From Oceanimonas sp. GK1 (lineage in GTDB: Bacteria; Pseudomonadota; Gammaproteobacteria; Enterobacterales; Aeromonadaceae), in assembly GCF_000243075.1 (NCBI RefSeq), contig NC_016745.1, forward strand, positions 3,427,001 through 3,491,000: a DNA stretch of 64,000 nucleotides, in the 5' to 3' direction. The notes beneath the pieces are model-generated. The model made no database searches and had not been told where the DNA came from. It saw only the letters and a list, made by a program, of their open reading frames with translations. This document shows, one piece after another, positions 4,751 through 17,710 of this stretch (position 1 is the stretch's first letter; each line of letters starts with the position of its first letter). The translations under genes were made by a program, and so were the position numbers.

Positions 4751-5762
4751 CAACCGGCGACAGCTCATCCAGCGGCCAGCGCGGGCGGGCCTGCACCAGC
4801 AACGGTTCGGTCTGGCCGGCCTTGAGCCGCTGCAGCCCGGCAAAGGCGATCATGGCGCCGTTGTCGGTGCAGTATTCATTGCGCGGGTAAAACACCTCGC
4901 CCTTCAGCCCGGTCATCAAGGCGGCCAGTTGCTCCCGCAACGACACATTGGCACTGACGCCGCCCGCCACCACCAGCCGGTTGAGCCCGGTCTGCTTCAA
5001 TGCCCGTTCACATTTGATGGCCAGGGTGTCGACCACCGCCTGCTGAAAGGCGTGGGCAATGTCGGCCCGGGTCTGGTCGTCGTCGCCTTCGGCGGCAATG
5101 GTGGTGGCGGTGGCGGTCTTCAGCCCGGAGAAGCTGAAGTCCAGCCCGGGCCGGTCGGTCATGGGCCGGGGAAACTTAAAGCGGCCGGGCACGCCTTGCT
5201 CTGCCAGCTTCGCCAGGCGCGGACCGCCGGGATAATCAAGGCCCATCAGCTTGGCGGTCTTGTCAAAGGCCTCGCCGGCGGCATCGTCGATAGACTCGCC
5301 AAGGATCTGATAGCGGCCAATGCCGTCCACCCGTACCAGCAGGGTGTGACCACCGGACACCAGCAGCGCCACAAAGGGAAAGGCCGGCATCCGCTCTTCC
5401 AGCATGGGGGCCAGCAGGTGCCCTTCCATGTGGTGTACCGCCACCGCCGGCTTGCCCCAGGCAAAGGCCAGGCTGCGACCGATGGTGGCCCCCACCAGCA
5501 GCGCGCCCATCAGCCCCGGGCCGGCGGTATAGGCCACACCGTCGATGTCGTCCTGGCTGCAGCCGGCTTCCGCCAGCGCCGCCTCAATCAGCGGAATGGT
5601 CTTGCGAATGTGGTCGCGGCTGGCCAGCTCGGGCACCACACCGCCGTAATCGGCATGCAGTTTCACCTGGCTGTACAGCTGATGGGAGAGAATGCCGAGC
5701 TTGTCGTCATAGATGGCGATGCCGGTTTCGTCGCAGGAGGTTTCGATGCCTAGTACACGCAT
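4740..5762 (-). CDS. tsaD: tRNA N6-adenosine threonylcarbamoyltransferase TsaD
   Basis: Catalytic subunit for the final step of t6A37 formation in tRNAs that read ANN codons. The 340-residue protein starts [19 protein letters not shown], the ASKHA ATP-binding opening of the Kae1/TsaD family, and carries [12 protein letters not shown] near residue 110, the histidine pair that binds the metal. The SGLKTA and VAGGVSAN blocks are also present. It stands opposite rpsU, as in E. coli, with a shared divergent promoter region. Confidence 0.97.
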
Positions 5763-5844
5763 GGGAAAATGAATAACACTGTCGAAAAATAGGCAACCAT
5801 GTTACCCTGCCCGCGCTTTTTTAACCAGTAAAGGGGTGTCGGTC

Positions 5845-5874
5845 TTTACAGCCATACCCGGTTAAGAGTAGAAT
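5845..5874 (+). promoter_or_regulatory. sigma-70 promoter for the rpsU operon
   Basis: TTTACA (5845-5850) and TAGAAT (5869-5874) are separated by 18 bp, 61 bp before the rpsU start. Fair matches to -35 and -10; assigned by position. Confidence 0.6.
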
Positions 5875-5904
5875 TTCGCACCATTTTATTGTCATACTGG
5901 TTGA

Positions 5905-6150
<246 letters not shown>

Positions 6151-6165
6151 GGCGTTGTTGATCTC

Positions 6166-6609
6166 ATGTCTTTGAAAGACCAGCTGTCGGAACAGCAGAA
6201 AAATGCCATGCGCGCCAAAGACAAGGCTCGCCTGGGCACCCTGCGCATGCTGATGGCCGAGATCAAGCAAAAAGAGATCGACAGCCGCGAGACCCTGGAC
6301 GATGACGGCATCATCGCGGTGATCACCAAGATGGTGAAACAGCGCAAAGATGCCGCCAACCAGTTCGAGCAGGCCGGTCGTCAGGAACTGGCCGACAATG
6401 AGCGCCAGGAAATCGTGGTGCTGCAGGAGTTCCTGCCGCAACCCCTGACCGAAGACGAGCTGGACGCTTTGCTCACGCAGGCCATCGCCGACACCGGCGC
6501 CACTGGCATGCAGGACATGGGCAAGGTGATGGCGGTACTCAAACCGCAGATCCAGGGCCGTGCAGACATGGGCAAGGTCAGCGCCACCATCAAGGCCAAA
6601 CTGGCCTGA
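6166..6609 (+). CDS. yqeY: GatB/YqeY domain protein
   Basis: A 147-residue cytoplasmic protein with the YqeY fold, related to the tRNA-interacting tail of the GatB amidotransferase subunit; the precise function is not established. Visible signs are the MSLKDQLSEQQKNAMRAKDKARL start, the KQRKDAANQFEQAGRQELADNE segment, and the YLPQPL-like EFLPQPLTEDELDALL. Its position between rpsU and dnaG is conserved in many gammaproteobacteria. A terminator-like hairpin separates it from dnaG. Confidence 0.94.
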   Translation: MSLKDQLSEQQKNAMRAKDKARLGTLRMLMAEIKQKEIDSRETLDDDGIIAVITKMVKQRKDAANQFEQAGRQELADNERQEIVVLQEFLPQPLTEDELDALLTQAIADTGATGMQDMGKVMAVLKPQIQGRADMGKVSATIKAKLA

Positions 6610-6633
6610 TAATCGCCGCTGAACTGCCAACGG

Positions 6634-6668
6634 GCCGTGCTTCGAGAGAATGCACGGCTTTGTTTTTT
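6634..6668 (+). terminator. terminator or attenuator between yqeY and dnaG
   Basis: GCCGTGC (6634-6640) pairs with GCACGGC (6652-6658) and a T-rich run follows, 16 bp before the dnaG ATG. In E. coli an internal terminator in this operon keeps primase scarce relative to S21; this hairpin is placed to do the same. Confidence 0.75.
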
Positions 6669-6683
6669 GCTTTAGGGTGAATC

Positions 6684-8045
6684 ATGGCTGGCAGAATCCC
6701 GCAACAATTTATTGACGACCTCCTCGCCCGCACCGACATTGTCGATTTGATCGATCAGCGGGTACGACTCAAAAAAGCCGGCAAGAACTATCAGGCCTGC
6801 TGCCCCTTTCATAACGAAAAAAGCCCGTCCTTTACGGTTAGTCCCGACAAACAGTTCTATCACTGCTTCGGCTGTGGCGCCCACGGCACCGCCCTTGGCT
6901 TTTTGATGGAATATGACGGGCTGGAATTTCTCGACGCTATTGACGAAATGGCGGCCATGCACGGCCTCACCGTGCCCCGGGAAAGCACCGGCGGCAGCTC
7001 GCCCCAGCAACAGGCGGCGGCCCGGGCCGAACGTCAGGATCTCTACGGCCTGCTGAACGACATCAGTCAGTTTTACCAGCAGCAACTGCGCAGCGCATCG
7101 GCAGCCATTGACTACCTCAAGGGCCGGGGCCTGAGCGGCGAGGTGGTGAAACGCTTTGGCATTGGCTATGTGCCGGATCAGTGGGACAGCGTCAAACGCC
7201 GCTTTGGCAAAAACCGCGACACCGAACGCCAGCTGATCGACGGCGGCATGCTGCTGCAAAACGACAACGGCCGCGTTTACGACCGCTTTCGCGATCGCAT
7301 CATGTTCCCCATTCGGGACCGGCGCGGCCGCACCATCGGCTTTGGCGGCCGGGTGCTGGGCGACGGCACCCCCAAGTACCTGAACTCGCCGGAAACCCCG
7401 GTGTTTCACAAGGGGCGCGAGCTGTATGGCCTGTATGAAGTTCGCCAGGCCCACCGCAACCCGGAGCGCATTCTGGTGGTGGAAGGCTACATGGACGTGG
7501 TGGCCCTGGCCCAGTTCGGCATCGACTACGCGGTAGCCAGCCTGGGCACCTCCACCACCCCCGATCAGCTGCAGTTGCTGTACCGTACCACCCGCGAAGT
7601 GATCTGCTGCTACGATGGCGACCGCGCCGGTCGCGAAGCCGCCTGGCGGGCACTGGAAAACGCCCTGCCGCTGATGCAGGACGGCCGCAGCCTGCGCTTT
7701 GTGTTTTTGCCCGACGGCGAAGATCCCGACAGCCTGGTACGCACCCAGGGCCAGCAGGCCTTTGAACGGCTACTGGACAACGCCCAGGACTTTGGCGACT
7801 TTCTGTTTGAACGCCTGGCGCAAGACAGCATGGGCGGCGACGCCGGCCAGCACGAGCTGGCCCACAAGGCCGCCGAAGCCATTATGCGGGTGCCCGAGGG
7901 CTTTACCCGGGAAGGCCTGGTCACTCAGCTGTCGCGCCAGCTCAACTGGGGCGAGAACGAGCGCCGGATCAAGGAGCTGTTTGCGCGGCTGAAGCCCGCC
8001 GAGGGCGAAAAAAACCGCCGTCGCGCCCGCAAAAACTCAAGTTAA
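6684..8045 (+). CDS. dnaG: DNA primase DnaG, zero-frame product lacking the helicase-binding domain
   Basis: Synthesises RNA primers at the replication fork. The 453-residue zero-frame product has the CHC2 zinc ribbon (CCPFHN ... CFGCGAHG, residues 39-65), the TOPRIM catalytic core (VVEGYMDVVAL near 268, CCYDGDRAGREAA near 308) and the core C-terminal part. It then runs into a basic tail, KNRRRARKNSS, and a stop at 8043. E. coli DnaG has 581 residues; what is missing is exactly the DnaB-binding domain, which is found intact in the -1 frame (8015-8455). The frames meet at the heptamer A AAA AAC (8009-8015), with AAA and AAC in zero frame. Joined, the protein would have about 590 residues. Recoding, transcriptional slippage on the A7 run, a true mutation and a base-calling error are all possible. 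Confidence 0.93.
   Translation: MAGRIPQQFIDDLLARTDIVDLIDQRVRLKKAGKNYQACCPFHNEKSPSFTVSPDKQFYHCFGCGAHGTALGFLMEYDGLEFLDAIDEMAAMHGLTVPRESTGGSSPQQQAAARAERQDLYGLLNDISQFYQQQLRSASAAIDYLKGRGLSGEVVKRFGIGYVPDQWDSVKRRFGKNRDTERQLIDGGMLLQNDNGRVYDRFRDRIMFPIRDRRGRTIGFGGRVLGDGTPKYLNSPETPVFHKGRELYGLYEVRQAHRNPERILVVEGYMDVVALAQFGIDYAVASLGTSTTPDQLQLLYRTTREVICCYDGDRAGREAAWRALENALPLMQDGRSLRFVFLPDGEDPDSLVRTQGQQAFERLLDNAQDFGDFLFERLAQDSMGGDAGQHELAHKAAEAIMRVPEGFTREGLVTQLSRQLNWGENERRIKELFARLKPAEGEKNRRRARKNSS
8009..8015 (+). other. candidate -1 slippery heptamer A AAA AAC in dnaG
   Basis: The zero-frame codons are GAA AAA AAC; a one-base backward slip gives AAA AAA and continues CCG CCG TCG into the frame of the DnaB-binding domain. 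The seven-A run is also a site for transcriptional slippage. A purine-rich GAGGG lies only a few bases upstream (8001-8005), closer than the spacing of the dnaX Shine-Dalgarno-like stimulator. I see no obvious strong stem immediately downstream. Confidence 0.6.
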
Positions 8046-8455
8046 CCCCGCTTCGACGGGCCATTGCCCTTGTGCTACAATATCCGGCTGCCGCGGCCCG
8101 GCTGCCGGAAATGCCGGCGCTGGAAGAGCTGTCCGTTCCGGGCATGGAGCTGCTGCTGGCGCTGCTGGTGATGGTGCGCGAACAGCCCGGAATGAGTACC
8201 GCCCAGTTGCTGGAGCACTGGCGGGGGCATTCAGCGGAGCCTGCGCTGTCGCGCCTGGCCATGGCCGACAACGCCTTTGCCGGTGACCATATCGAGCAGG
8301 AACTGCAAGACATCTTCGTGGTGCTGATCAACGACTACCTGGCCCAACGCATTGAGCTGCTGCAACAAAAAAGCCGCAGCCGCGACGGGCTGACACCATC
8401 GGAAAAACAGGAATTACTGCTGCTGCTGACAGAAAGCAAGGGCGGCGCGGTCTGA
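8015..8455 (+). CDS. dnaG: DnaG C-terminal helicase-interaction domain in the -1 frame
   Basis: This frame has no stop from 8015 to 8452 and reads PPSRPQKLKLTPLRRAIALVL, then a QYPAAAARLP segment, then GMSTAQLLEHWRG and a helical end with ELLLLLTESKGG. These match, block for block, the DnaB-binding domain of E. coli DnaG (its TTMRILIGLLVQNPELATLVP and LTTGQLLEHYRG). There is no ribosome site for independent translation; the first possible start, a GTG at 8072, would already be inside the domain. It is therefore best read as the continuation of dnaG after a -1 shift, not a separate gene. Confidence 0.88.
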   Translation, partial: PPSRPQKLKLTPLRRAIALVLQYPAAAARLPEMPALEELSVPGMELLLALLVMVREQPGMSTAQLLEHWRGHSAEPALSRLAMADNAFAGDHIEQELQDIFVVLINDYLAQRIELLQQKSRSRDGLTPSEKQELLLLLTESKGGAV

Positions 8456-8599
8456 TAATTGAAAAACGGGCAAGATGCCCCAAGATTGTAGTAAAGGCCC
8501 GAACACGGGTAGAAGGTAAACCAGTGAACGCTGCAGCACGCTCGGCTCAAGGGCGAGGTGTTGGCAAGCTCGGACCAGTTAGCCAGACTGGTCAAATTT

Positions 8600-8608
8600 T
8601 GTTATAAT
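8600..8608 (+). promoter_or_regulatory. extended -10 promoter before rpoD
   Basis: TGTTATAAT fits the extended -10 pattern TGnTATAAT; no good -35 lies upstream. It would start transcription about 65 bp before the rpoD ATG, in the 220-bp gap after dnaG. Confidence 0.65.
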
Positions 8609-8679
8609 CGGCTACTTGCGCGCCAGAAATGAGTGCCTCTAGTACCCACCCTCTTGCAACATCTAACCGGACGAGTTCT

Positions 8680-10524
<1,845 letters not shown>

Positions 10525-10820: not shown

Positions 10821-10897
10821 GGCCCCTTAGCTCAGTTGGTTAGAGCAGTCGACTCATAATCGATTGGTCGCCCGTTCAAGTCGGGCAGGGGCCACCA
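10821..10897 (+). tRNA. ileX: tRNA-Ile2 (CAU anticodon, lysidine type)
   Basis: A 77-nt cloverleaf beginning GGCCCCTTAGCTCAGTTGGT and ending GGGGCCACCA with encoded CCA. The acceptor stem GGCCCCT/AGGGGCC, the T stem around GTTCAAGTC, and the anticodon loop CTCATAA are all present. The sequence follows E. coli ileX closely (GGCCCCTTAGCTCAGT start, GGTCGC in the variable arm), so the CAU anticodon is read as the lysidine-modified AUA decoder rather than methionine. Confidence 0.95.
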
Positions 10898-11447: not shown

Positions 11448-13298
11448 ATGAAAATTATTCGACGTGTTGATATAAAGTACTTCCGATCAATCTATACGAT
11501 AGCGCTTAAGCAATGTGGATCTCTCAATGTATTGTCGGGCCGTAATGATGTGGGGAAGTCGAATATTCTTCGCGCACTGAATCTATTCTTCAACGGTCAA
11601 ACAGATTGGAAAACACCGCTGGATTTTTCCCGGGATTTTTCGCTCGCCCGGTTGGAGCAAGTGCGTAAAGAGTCCGTTAAAGGCAAACAGTTCATTCAAG
11701 TATCGATTGAATTTGAAAGGCCGAGTAATTTTAAAGGGAGCCTTCCAGAGAGATTCGTTGTCAAGAGAAACTGGTATCGAGATCAAAACCAATATAGTCA
11801 AGCTGACAACCTTGTGGCACTAGATAAAGCTGGAAAGTGCCCGTCAACGCTTGCAACAGCTCAGAGAATGCTCCCTGTGTTTCTAAATCGAGTTCACTTT
11901 GAGTATGTTCCTGCAGTAAAAGATAGAGCGTTTTTTGAGCATGTTCTTTCGCGTTTACAGCATTCACTGTTAGGTGCATCGCTTGAGATTGACAACCCAA
12001 TATCTCAGCTTTCTGGTCAGCTAGCTGAACATATCGGGCAGCAAGTGGGGGATTTACGAACGGATTTTTCAAGAGCTACTAATTTAGATACAACCATCGA
12101 ACCACCAAGTCAGCTGTCAAGCCTTTTTCAAGCATTCCAGGTGTCAGTTCCTTCTGGTGAGAATCAAGTATCTCTAAATTTAAGAGGTGATGGTATGCAA
12201 GCTCGTTACATACCGTCGGTTCTTCACTATATCGCTTCAAAGAGCCCCTCTTTTTTTATATGGGGGTTTGAAGAGCCAGAGAATTCGCTAGAATTTGCCA
12301 GCGCTGATTCGCTCGCAGACGATCTTGAAACACGTTACTCGAATGACGCGCAAATTTTAATAACCAGTCATTCACCTGCAATGGTTTCTCGAACAGGCCC
12401 AGAAGTTTCATGCTACCGAGTATGGCAGCCGGATTCAAAAACAGAGGTTGAGCGTTTGGAATATCCACTGGAGAAAACAATTTCCGGAGCAAAACTGAAA
12501 GAAGAAATTGGATTACTAAGAATTCAGCAAGAAATTCATGGTGAGTACAAAAGTAAATTAAAGGAATTGGAAAAGTTATCTAAAAAGGTTTCTTCATTGG
12601 AAGAAGAAATAGAAGCTAAGCAACTTCCTCTTGTGCTAGTGGAAGGTGTGACTGATATCTCAATCATTGAGGCTGCTTGGAAAAAGCTCAATCCCAATGT
12701 TGAAATGCCATTCATGATTCGTTCCGCTGACCCTTCAGCAAATATTTCTGGTGGTGGAAGTGGAGGGGCAGGTTCATTGGCTAAAGCTATTGAAAGTATT
12801 CATCCCGCAGATGGTCGCCATGTTGTCGCTGTCTTCGATCATGATCAAGAAGGGATAAAGGCGTTTGATTCGCTAAGCAAGAACTTCAAGATTGTGAAGG
12901 CGCGATCACATGAAAAAAGGCATGCAAATGGATATGCGGTCGCTCTTACTCTTGCCGTAGCTGGCGATAACTTGCCAGTAGTCGAGGCAAAAAATCTATG
13001 TGTAGAATACCTATTCGACAGCGATGTACACCAACTTAAGGATGACGAGGGCCGAGGTCTTGAGTTTAAGGAGCAAGAGATAGTTGTAGCCGCAGCAGGT
13101 AAAAAGATCCCTCTTTCTCCAGAGCAACAGCAGCTATTTTCTGGCGCTTTAGGCGACTTATCAGCTTATCGTTTAGTTTCTGGTGATAAGAAGGCATTTT
13201 CTCAAAATATAGTGCCAAATTTAGAGGCTGATAAGTTTCATCGTTTCTCTGTTCTCTTTGATCGTATTTCGGTAGCACTACAGAACGATAATGCCTAA
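11448..13298 (+). CDS. OLD-family ATPase / TOPRIM nuclease
   Basis: A 616-residue protein with an ABC-type ATPase part and a TOPRIM nuclease part, the architecture of OLD (overcoming lysogenisation defect) proteins, several of which defend against phage. Walker A is SGRNDVGKSN near residue 35; the Walker B/signature region is GFEEPENSLEF near 275; ITSHSPAMV is the switch histidine region. A coiled stretch (about residues 350-395) leads to TOPRIM motifs LVLVEGVTD (about 395) and VAVFDHDQEG (about 463). There is no UvrD-like helicase partner, so it fits stand-alone (class 1) OLD rather than Gabija GajA. Codon use is AT-rich; the gene is carried on an integron-type cassette and has no promoter of its own that I can see. 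Confidence 0.9.
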   Translation: MKIIRRVDIKYFRSIYTIALKQCGSLNVLSGRNDVGKSNILRALNLFFNGQTDWKTPLDFSRDFSLARLEQVRKESVKGKQFIQVSIEFERPSNFKGSLPERFVVKRNWYRDQNQYSQADNLVALDKAGKCPSTLATAQRMLPVFLNRVHFEYVPAVKDRAFFEHVLSRLQHSLLGASLEIDNPISQLSGQLAEHIGQQVGDLRTDFSRATNLDTTIEPPSQLSSLFQAFQVSVPSGENQVSLNLRGDGMQARYIPSVLHYIASKSPSFFIWGFEEPENSLEFASADSLADDLETRYSNDAQILITSHSPAMVSRTGPEVSCYRVWQPDSKTEVERLEYPLEKTISGAKLKEEIGLLRIQQEIHGEYKSKLKELEKLSKKVSSLEEEIEAKQLPLVLVEGVTDISIIEAAWKKLNPNVEMPFMIRSADPSANISGGGSGGAGSLAKAIESIHPADGRHVVAVFDHDQEGIKAFDSLSKNFKIVKARSHEKRHANGYAVALTLAVAGDNLPVVEAKNLCVEYLFDSDVHQLKDDEGRGLEFKEQEIVVAAAGKKIPLSPEQQQLFSGALGDLSAYRLVSGDKKAFSQNIVPNLEADKFHRFSVLFDRISVALQNDNA

Positions 13299-15799: not shown

Positions 15800-17710
15800 T
15801 TACACGCGAAAGCGCCCTACCAGCGCCTGCAACTGAGTAGCAAGCCGCGCCAGCTCTGCACTGGCCTGGGCGGTCTGACCCACGGAATGACCGCTTTGCT
15901 CGGCAATGTCGTTGATAAGACTCATGCTGCGGTTTACGTCTTCCGCCACGGCGGACTGCTCTTCCACGGCCGCAGCCACCTGGGTGTTCATGTCGTGAAT
16001 GGCATCCACGGCGGTTTTAATGTCACTCAGCCGGCTGGCCACCGTGTTGGCCTCGTCCACGGCGGTTTCGGTTTTTTGTCGGTTCTGCTCCATCACCGCC
16101 ACCACATTGTGGGTGCTTTGCTGAATGCGGGTCACCAGCTGTTCAATTTCGCCGGTGCTTTGCTGGGTACGCTGGGCCAGGCTGCGCACTTCATCGGCCA
16201 CCACCGAGAAGCCCTTGCCGGCGTCGCCGGCCCGGGCCGCTTCAATGGCGGCATTGAGCGCCAGCAGGTTGGTCTGGTCGGCAATGGTGTGGATCACGTC
16301 CAGCATTTTGCCAATGTCGCCGCTCTGGCGGGCCAGCTCCTGGATCATGGCCGACGCCTGCCCCGCCTCGCCGGCCAGCTCGTGCATGCTCTGCACGCTG
16401 CGGCCCACGGCGTCGCGGCCATGTTCGGTGGTGGCGGTAGTCTGCCGGGCGGTATCGGCGGCATTGCCGGTGTTGCCGGCAATTTCCTGAATCGACATGG
16501 TCATCTGATGCATGGCGGTCACCACCTGGGTGGTCTGATCCCGCTGGCTGTCTACGCCCCGACGGGTTTCCCCGGCCACCTGAGACAACTCCTCGGTGGC
16601 GGCGGCCATCTGGCCGGTGGCGTCCGACACCCGTCGTACCAGCTCCTGCACCTTGGTCACGAAGCGGTTATAGGCCCGGGCCAGCTCGCTCAGCTCGTCA
16701 CGGCCGGCCTCATCCAGGCGCCAGGTCAAATCCCCGTCGCCGTCGGCAATGTCCTGCAGGTTCATTACCGTTGCCCGCAGCGGCTGCACTATGCTGCGCG
16801 CCAGCACCAGGGCCACCAGCACCGCCACCAGCAGGGCAACCGTGGCCAGACTGCCCACAAACAGCCGGGTGGCGGCCAGATTATCGGCGTAGAAGCTGCG
16901 ATCCATGGCAATTTCCACCACCGCAATGGGGTTGCCGGCATAGTCGCTCAGGGTGCGGGCCAGGGTGGCGTAGTGCGTATCTTTTTGCTCTTCACGGCCC
17001 AGCACGGTTTCTCCCCGCCAGGCGGCCAGCAATTGCTCCGCCGTGTTCAGGCTGCCGCCGGCAATGGTGGAGGCCAACTGCTCCGGGCGGTTGCTGTTAA
17101 TGGCATGAATGGCAATGCCGGCACCAAATTCCTGACTGAAATGTTCCGCAAAGGACTGGGCCAGGTTAAGCCCGAACTCCACCGAGCCCAGGTGCCGGCC
17201 CGCCTGGCCGATGGGCGACAGGCCGCGAATGCCAATGCCGGCCACCCCGCCGTCCAGCCCCCGCACCGGCGCCCGGCTCTGGTTGGTGGCCACTATGGTG
17301 GGCCGCAGGGCGCTCAGATCATCACCGTATTTTTCCGGCCGGTGCAGCCGCAGAAAAGAGGTGGCGGGCGCGGTGTGAAACTGAAACTGGGCCACGCCAT
17401 AGTGTTGTTCAAGACGCTTGAACACCGGCAGAAACTGGCCGGCAAGCCGCTCCCGCTCGCCATTGGCAAAGGCACTTTGCACGCCGGGCTGGGCCGCCAC
17501 CATGGCGCTCATGGCCTCGGCAAACAGCGCCTGGGTATCAATCTGGGCACGCACGGCGCCATACAGGCCTTGCAGCTCGCGCTTTTCCGCCTGGGCGATC
17601 AGCCGGTTGGCATTGGCCAGATAAAAGAAGGACATGGCGAGCACGGTGATCGCCACCAGGCCACCCACGCCGGCGGCCAGGCGAGTGCCGATATTAACGT
17701 TTCTGAACAA
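15800..17710 (-). CDS. methyl-accepting chemotaxis protein with large Cache-type periplasmic domain
   Basis: Inner-membrane chemoreceptor. After a short cytoplasmic start there is a membrane helix ([20 protein letters not shown]), a periplasmic domain of about 270 residues resembling dCache_3 ([32 protein letters not shown]), a second helix, a HAMP linker ([22 protein letters not shown]) and the MCP signalling hairpin with tip [15 protein letters not shown]. The TTG start at 17710 follows AAGGA and puts [10 protein letters not shown] at the N terminus; an ATG 141 bp further upstream is possible but lacks a clear ribosome site. No C-terminal CheR-binding pentapeptide. Ligand unknown. Confidence 0.93.

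Follow-up and report, generated by a model that had tools for sequence, protein, structure and literature searches.

A frame break at a slippery heptamer in dnaG of Oceanimonas sp. GK1 probably reflects a base lost from the deposited sequence

The bacterial heptamers that support efficient -1 frameshifting are those whose A-site codon re-pairs cognately in the -1 frame, and without stimulators shifting amounts to only about 0.3% even at the three best of the heptamers that end in A_AAG (PMC4066793). The heptamer A_AAA_AAC is reported to be an inefficient slip site in E. coli, where re-pairing of AAC as AAA is less well tolerated than in eukaryotes (PMC4066793; PMC5009743). A proven case of frameshifting with this heptamer is a cluster of insertion sequences (IS) that has no established stimulator (PMC4066793). 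For stimulators of the Shine-Dalgarno (SD) type, the reported spacing is 9-14 nt for -1 shifts and 3 for +1 shifts (PMC5009743). As to dnaG, neither this name nor the word primase occurs in PMC4066793 or in the first 300,000 of 475,107 characters of PMC5009743. The dnaX gene of GK1 itself (L168, contig 1 of the assembly, about 2509072-2510121, minus strand) served as a positive control: its open frame of 773 codons carries A_AAA_AAG near codon 390, a stem of -17.5 kcal/mol starts 5 bases past the heptamer, and a shift into the -1 frame meets a stop one codon later.

We analysed a window of 64,000 nucleotides, positions 3427001-3491000 of contig 1 in the assembly of this marine bacterium (three contigs of 3514537, 8462 and 4245 bases), and give window positions below; dnaG and the features within it are on the plus strand. 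The zero frame of dnaG (6684-8045) opens with ATG 6684 and closes with TAA 8043-8045, forming a 453-codon ORF without the domain that lies beyond the core and the start of the C-terminal region. When the two pieces of the gene were searched apart, the 453-residue piece matched PF01807, PF08275 and PF13155 (Zn_ribbon_DnaG, DNAG_N and Toprim families), with a weak match to PF10410 (DnaB_bind) at residues 372-424, and scored 483 bits against TIGR01391; the zinc ribbon, catalytic core and Toprim of bacterial DnaG are present in it. The C-terminal helicase (DnaB)-binding domain (DnaG_DnaB_bind, PF08278, E 5.5e-30) sits in the -1 frame and not in that of the core, as a piece of 146 codons followed by the stop TGA 8453-8455 (8015-8455). 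Open from 7811 up to this stop, the -1 frame overlaps the zero frame over 235 bases (7811-8045). At or beside the frame change is a run of seven A's (8008-8014, between G8007 and C8015), and A_AAA_AAC at 8009-8015, with codons GAA AAA AAC, has the zero-frame X_XXY_YYZ phase that -1 frameshifting requires. Neither the overlap nor the rest of the 453-codon ORF holds another heptamer of this kind. Direct reading and Pfam thus bore out the anatomy given in a preliminary description of this DNA, namely a zero-frame primase that ends at 8045 just past the catalytic core, a binding domain without a stop in the -1 frame (the end point given there, 8452, is the last sense base) and A AAA AAC at 8009-8015 with AAA and AAC in the zero frame.

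The gene is accordingly classed as a frame-broken dnaG rather than as an intact one. The frame break in the sequence is real and falls in a conserved gene: amino-acid identity to the genome G013 is 95% on one side of it and 89% on the other, that of the binding domain. The lost base was placed by eye at about 8001-8030, by eye because the linker is too variable to be aligned between species. A search of the GK1 genome for a second dnaG copy returned none, and the gene is single copy. At the far end of the binding domain, the C-terminus reads GGAV (8440-8455), one residue short of the GGAVL or GGTVL seen in five of seven close relatives that were aligned.

The next gene downstream is rpoD (ORF 8629-10524, plus strand; NF004208, 921 bits), which is open throughout and whose true start may be ATG 8680. 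A tRNA-Met (CAT; 10821-10897) lies downstream of rpoD, with no other tRNA found in the window, and is followed by a 616-aa ORF (11448-13298) that by eye resembles an OLD-family ATPase/nuclease. Outside the window, at about 16000-17200 of locus L131 (contig 1, 3403023-3404200), there is a transposase-like ORF pair, IS3-like by eye, with an in-frame A_AAA_AAG in the first ORF; the second is interrupted by an in-frame TGA at a codon that is Trp in two G013 copies.

All 22 other genomes of the genus that were searched have dnaG as one unbroken frame of 590-594 residues. The linker between the core and the binding domain varies among them, and in none of the 22 does it hold A7 followed by C or a frame break kept together with a slippery site; one (L017) has an A7 run in frame within an intact dnaG. 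The comparison of this tract across relatives, which the preliminary description had proposed, therefore comes close to refuting the two primases proposed there. Across the family, dnaG was matched in 74 of 75 genomes, with listed open frames of 591-615 in 70 of them, the four left out being GK1, G060 (split) and the contig-start pieces of G061 and G069.

We also scanned 102 homologous loci, the 22 genus loci together with the 80 best of 593 candidates (some possibly the same species twice). Counted from the start, 101 of them reach 540 codons or more, the exception, L102, meeting its locus end at 535. A_AAA_AAC was found at codons 416-489 in none of these 101 homologues, and with the heptamer absent from the relatives' linkers its conservation was rejected as a sign of recoding. 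The related A_AAA_AAG occurs in frame in the linker (codons 439-452) of 3 of the 101 (L017 and L022, both of the genus, and L086), all with unbroken genes, perhaps as a feature of lysine-rich linkers only. A -1 slip there would add 61 codons and then a stop in L022 and 48 codons in L086, giving a primase without the normal binding domain, and would meet no stop before the gene end in L017.

Selection on the binding domain was assessed by dN/dS, which is 0.07-0.15 between GK1 and each of six relatives (L003-L008) and 0.05-0.17 among those six. Judged from these substitution patterns, which are like those of the relatives, the domain is translated now, or was until very recently; decay of the domain was considered and rejected, as no decay is seen. 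The dnaG gene is essential. Its single copy in GK1 and the role of the C-terminal domain in docking primase on DnaB (PMC5872134) mean that a truly broken dnaG should be costly.

The reading that we consider probable, with good but not full confidence, is that the frame break is an error in the deposited GK1 sequence, one base having been lost at the A run of the variable dnaG linker. The real gene would then code for a single ordinary primase, full-length at about 590 residues, of the kind found in the 22 other genomes of the genus. The break is most likely no real feature, the fault most likely lying in the reads or the assembly rather than in the cell and the lost base most likely within the A run. 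The preliminary description had named the loss of one A from a run of eight as its dull alternative; an error is indeed what we favour, the position in the A run is one that we infer, and no relative has such a run.

Loss of one A from GAA AAA AAA C, an eight-A run in this phase, leaves exactly A_AAA_AAC. Since a lost base can leave the heptamer behind, the heptamer alone is no proof of recoding, and the same caution applies to other perfect slippery heptamers at frame breaks, which may be the residue of one base lost from an in-phase A run. In a null model, 18 of 1491 single-base losses in the linkers of the 22 relatives left a heptamer in the zero frame at the break; for the 139 losses that fell in runs of five or more, the count was 0. 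As random losses rarely leave a heptamer, its presence points either to a longer in-phase A run in GK1 or to a site selected for slipping. The heptamer is thus weak evidence for recoding, and it does not separate an error from a real mutation.

Two points count against an error: GK1 looks clean in the part compared, and an in-phase eight-A run, which no relative shows, has to be supposed. On the first point, frame breaks with coding sequence on both sides were found in 1 of 290 GK1 genes compared with G013, the one being dnaG itself, and in 0 of 309 in the reverse direction, so that neither a general excess of frame breaks, which would favour an error but is not needed for one, nor a general problem of the GK1 assembly was seen in this part. 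Both segments had to show an amino-acid identity above the base identity, by which 9 joins in GK1 and 5 in the reverse direction were set aside; in-frame stops remain in 2 GK1 queries (344826_346193 and 235742_237361) and in 3 G013 queries. An earlier version with the criterion on the best segment only covered 268 genes and gave five frame joins and four stops, dnaG alone having coding sequence on both sides. With 1044 kb sampled in place of 644 kb and an identity cut-off of 70 in place of 75, the gene count rose no further than from 268 to 290, presumably for want of further collinearity with G013. The first censuses had given multi-frame matches for 26 of 219 GK1 queries (16 of 216 in reverse) and a frame change or stop in 37 of 204 matches (23 of 203 in reverse), breaks that by eye were mostly antisense ORFs or upstream extensions.

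Long runs elsewhere in GK1 are likewise read in frame. Among 460 intact ORFs (464 kb), a set chosen for intactness that may hold antisense ORFs, the long homopolymer runs are all in frame, 36 of them seven bases in length and 9 of them eight, one place being counted twice in overlapping ORFs. GK1 shows no depletion of A/T runs of eight or more, with 13 in 324 kb (60.5% GC) versus 5 in 320 kb of G013. One lost base against about 45 long runs read in frame amounts to about 2%, a figure that a single sequencing error can easily supply.

Broken dnaG genes occur in at least 3 of 435 distinct genomes in the family and order searches, among the matches listed; for the order search these were the best matches, the lower rows of which were judged from E-values and match numbers. 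Seven genomes were picked by eye for a close look, G060 from the family search and six from the order search: three have a break inside a contig, G336 and G395 have pieces at contig starts, and G088 and G131 have core and domain in one frame. In the more distant genomes G060, G304 and G239 (one or two contigs each; loci L178, L179 and L180/L194), dnaG is broken at five places in the core or the domain, four of which adjoin, by eye, runs of 4-5 C or G. Recoding being implausible inside the core or the domain, these breaks are likely assembly errors, and a broken dnaG in an assembly is therefore not very rare.

Next in standing, at a level that we still regard as unlikely, is a real and recent loss of one base from the A run in GK1, with occasional ribosomal or transcriptional slippage, unprogrammed, supplying enough full-length primase. 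The weights that we attach to this account and to an error are judgements and were not computed. The otherwise clean assembly in the part compared, the right phase of the heptamer and the continuing constraint on the binding domain speak for such a loss, as does a precedent from insect endosymbionts, in which slippage of transcription at long A runs corrects the frame (PMC5009743). Against it, that slippage is described for runs of 9 A or T, longer than A7 (PMC5009743), and ribosomal slipping would have to use a heptamer that is inefficient in E. coli, where the best A_AAG heptamers yield so little when unstimulated (PMC4066793; PMC5009743). Such a low level in an essential gene should meet strong counter-selection.

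We give little credence to the broader proposition that the sequence is right, that docking primase is made only via A7-C slippage and that most primase lacks the DnaB-binding domain, in a dnaX-like dnaG of a single lineage. The ratio of the two primase forms would in that event be set by the ribosome or RNA polymerase. Were it real, a replication gene would have a recoding-dependent helicase contact, a test of how little docked primase a fork needs.

More improbable again is programmed -1 frameshifting, in which a 453-residue core form and a full-length helicase-docking form would be made on purpose. The heptamer is in the exact phase, is the sole one in the overlap and stands between the core and the binding domain; random base losses seldom leave one (the 18 of 1491 above). 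The classical signal is present in dnaX of GK1, a few bacteria have a dnaX whose longer product seems to be made by the shift (PMC5009743), and the IS cluster mentioned above lends a proven A_AAA_AAC precedent. These points are opposed by the unbroken frame of all 22 relatives and by the weakness of the heptamer, whose AAC, read from the bases, would have to re-pair as AAA and not cognately in the -1 frame. Moreover, the minor product would be the form that the cell needs.

The site also looks poorly programmed in its surroundings, and beyond the heptamer we found no recoding signal. Folding of the 80 bases downstream is poorer than that of shuffled sequences (z +1.74; 196 of 200 shuffles did as well or better), a result that covers ordinary secondary structure, the folding method predicting no pseudoknots; for a 60 nt fold, the dnaX control gave -18.7 against -10.6 kcal/mol. 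A compact hairpin at 8000-8030 (z -1.34) holds the A run in its loop. The strongest SD-like stretch upstream (7999-8006, plus strand; CCGAGGG and CGAGGGC, -6.4 kcal/mol each) ends 3 and 2 bases before the heptamer, which is the wrong spacing for a -1 stimulator, and at 9-14 nt upstream nothing better than -0.2 kcal/mol was found. An Rfam search over 5500-9000 gave no match at E up to 1. The preliminary description was right about the arrangement, with the core in frame 0, the domain in frame -1 and the heptamer in phase. Its step from there to two primases made by programmed slippage is not supported, given the unbroken relatives, the searches that found no stimulator and the reported inefficiency of the heptamer in bacteria.

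Least probable of all is a split primase, with core and binding domain as two proteins, translation of the second restarting at GTG 8072 or at some other start within the gene. In its favour, the domain is constrained, and a 127-codon ORF, the longest listed that covers the domain by itself, begins 26 bases past the TAA (8072-8455, plus strand). Against it, the ribosome-binding site of this ORF is weak (-2.6 kcal/mol, versus -4.5 at the dnaG start and -3.2 at the rpoD ATG 8680), 19 codons would be lost from the front of the -1 piece by the restart, and no linker-split form occurs in the genus or in the 70 family members with whole frames.

Returning to the probable error, we compared the locus with four known situations. 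Like dnaX of the E. coli type (A_AAA_AAG with an upstream SD and a downstream stem-loop), GK1 dnaG is a replication gene with an in-phase poly-A heptamer and a frame change between domains; unlike it, dnaG has A_AAA_AAC, no stable stem that we could find, an SD-like stretch that is too close and a site that is not conserved, and its long form is the one that would need the shift. Transposases of the IS1 and IS3 families include A_AAA_AAC among their heptamers and make a two-frame fusion at low efficiency (PMC4066793), but a low product is useful to a mobile element, whereas dnaG has a housekeeping role and its relatives keep it unbroken. The slippage-rescued poly-A frameshifts of insect endosymbionts share a change of frame at an A run in a conserved gene, but occur in AT-rich genomes with long runs (PMC5009743), and GK1, with the GC content given above, has a run of seven. 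The assembly indels in dnaG of G060, G239 and G304 differ in lying in the core or the domain, where GK1 has a single break in the linker, and resemble the GK1 case in that the frame is lost, mostly beside homopolymers, while the relatives are intact.
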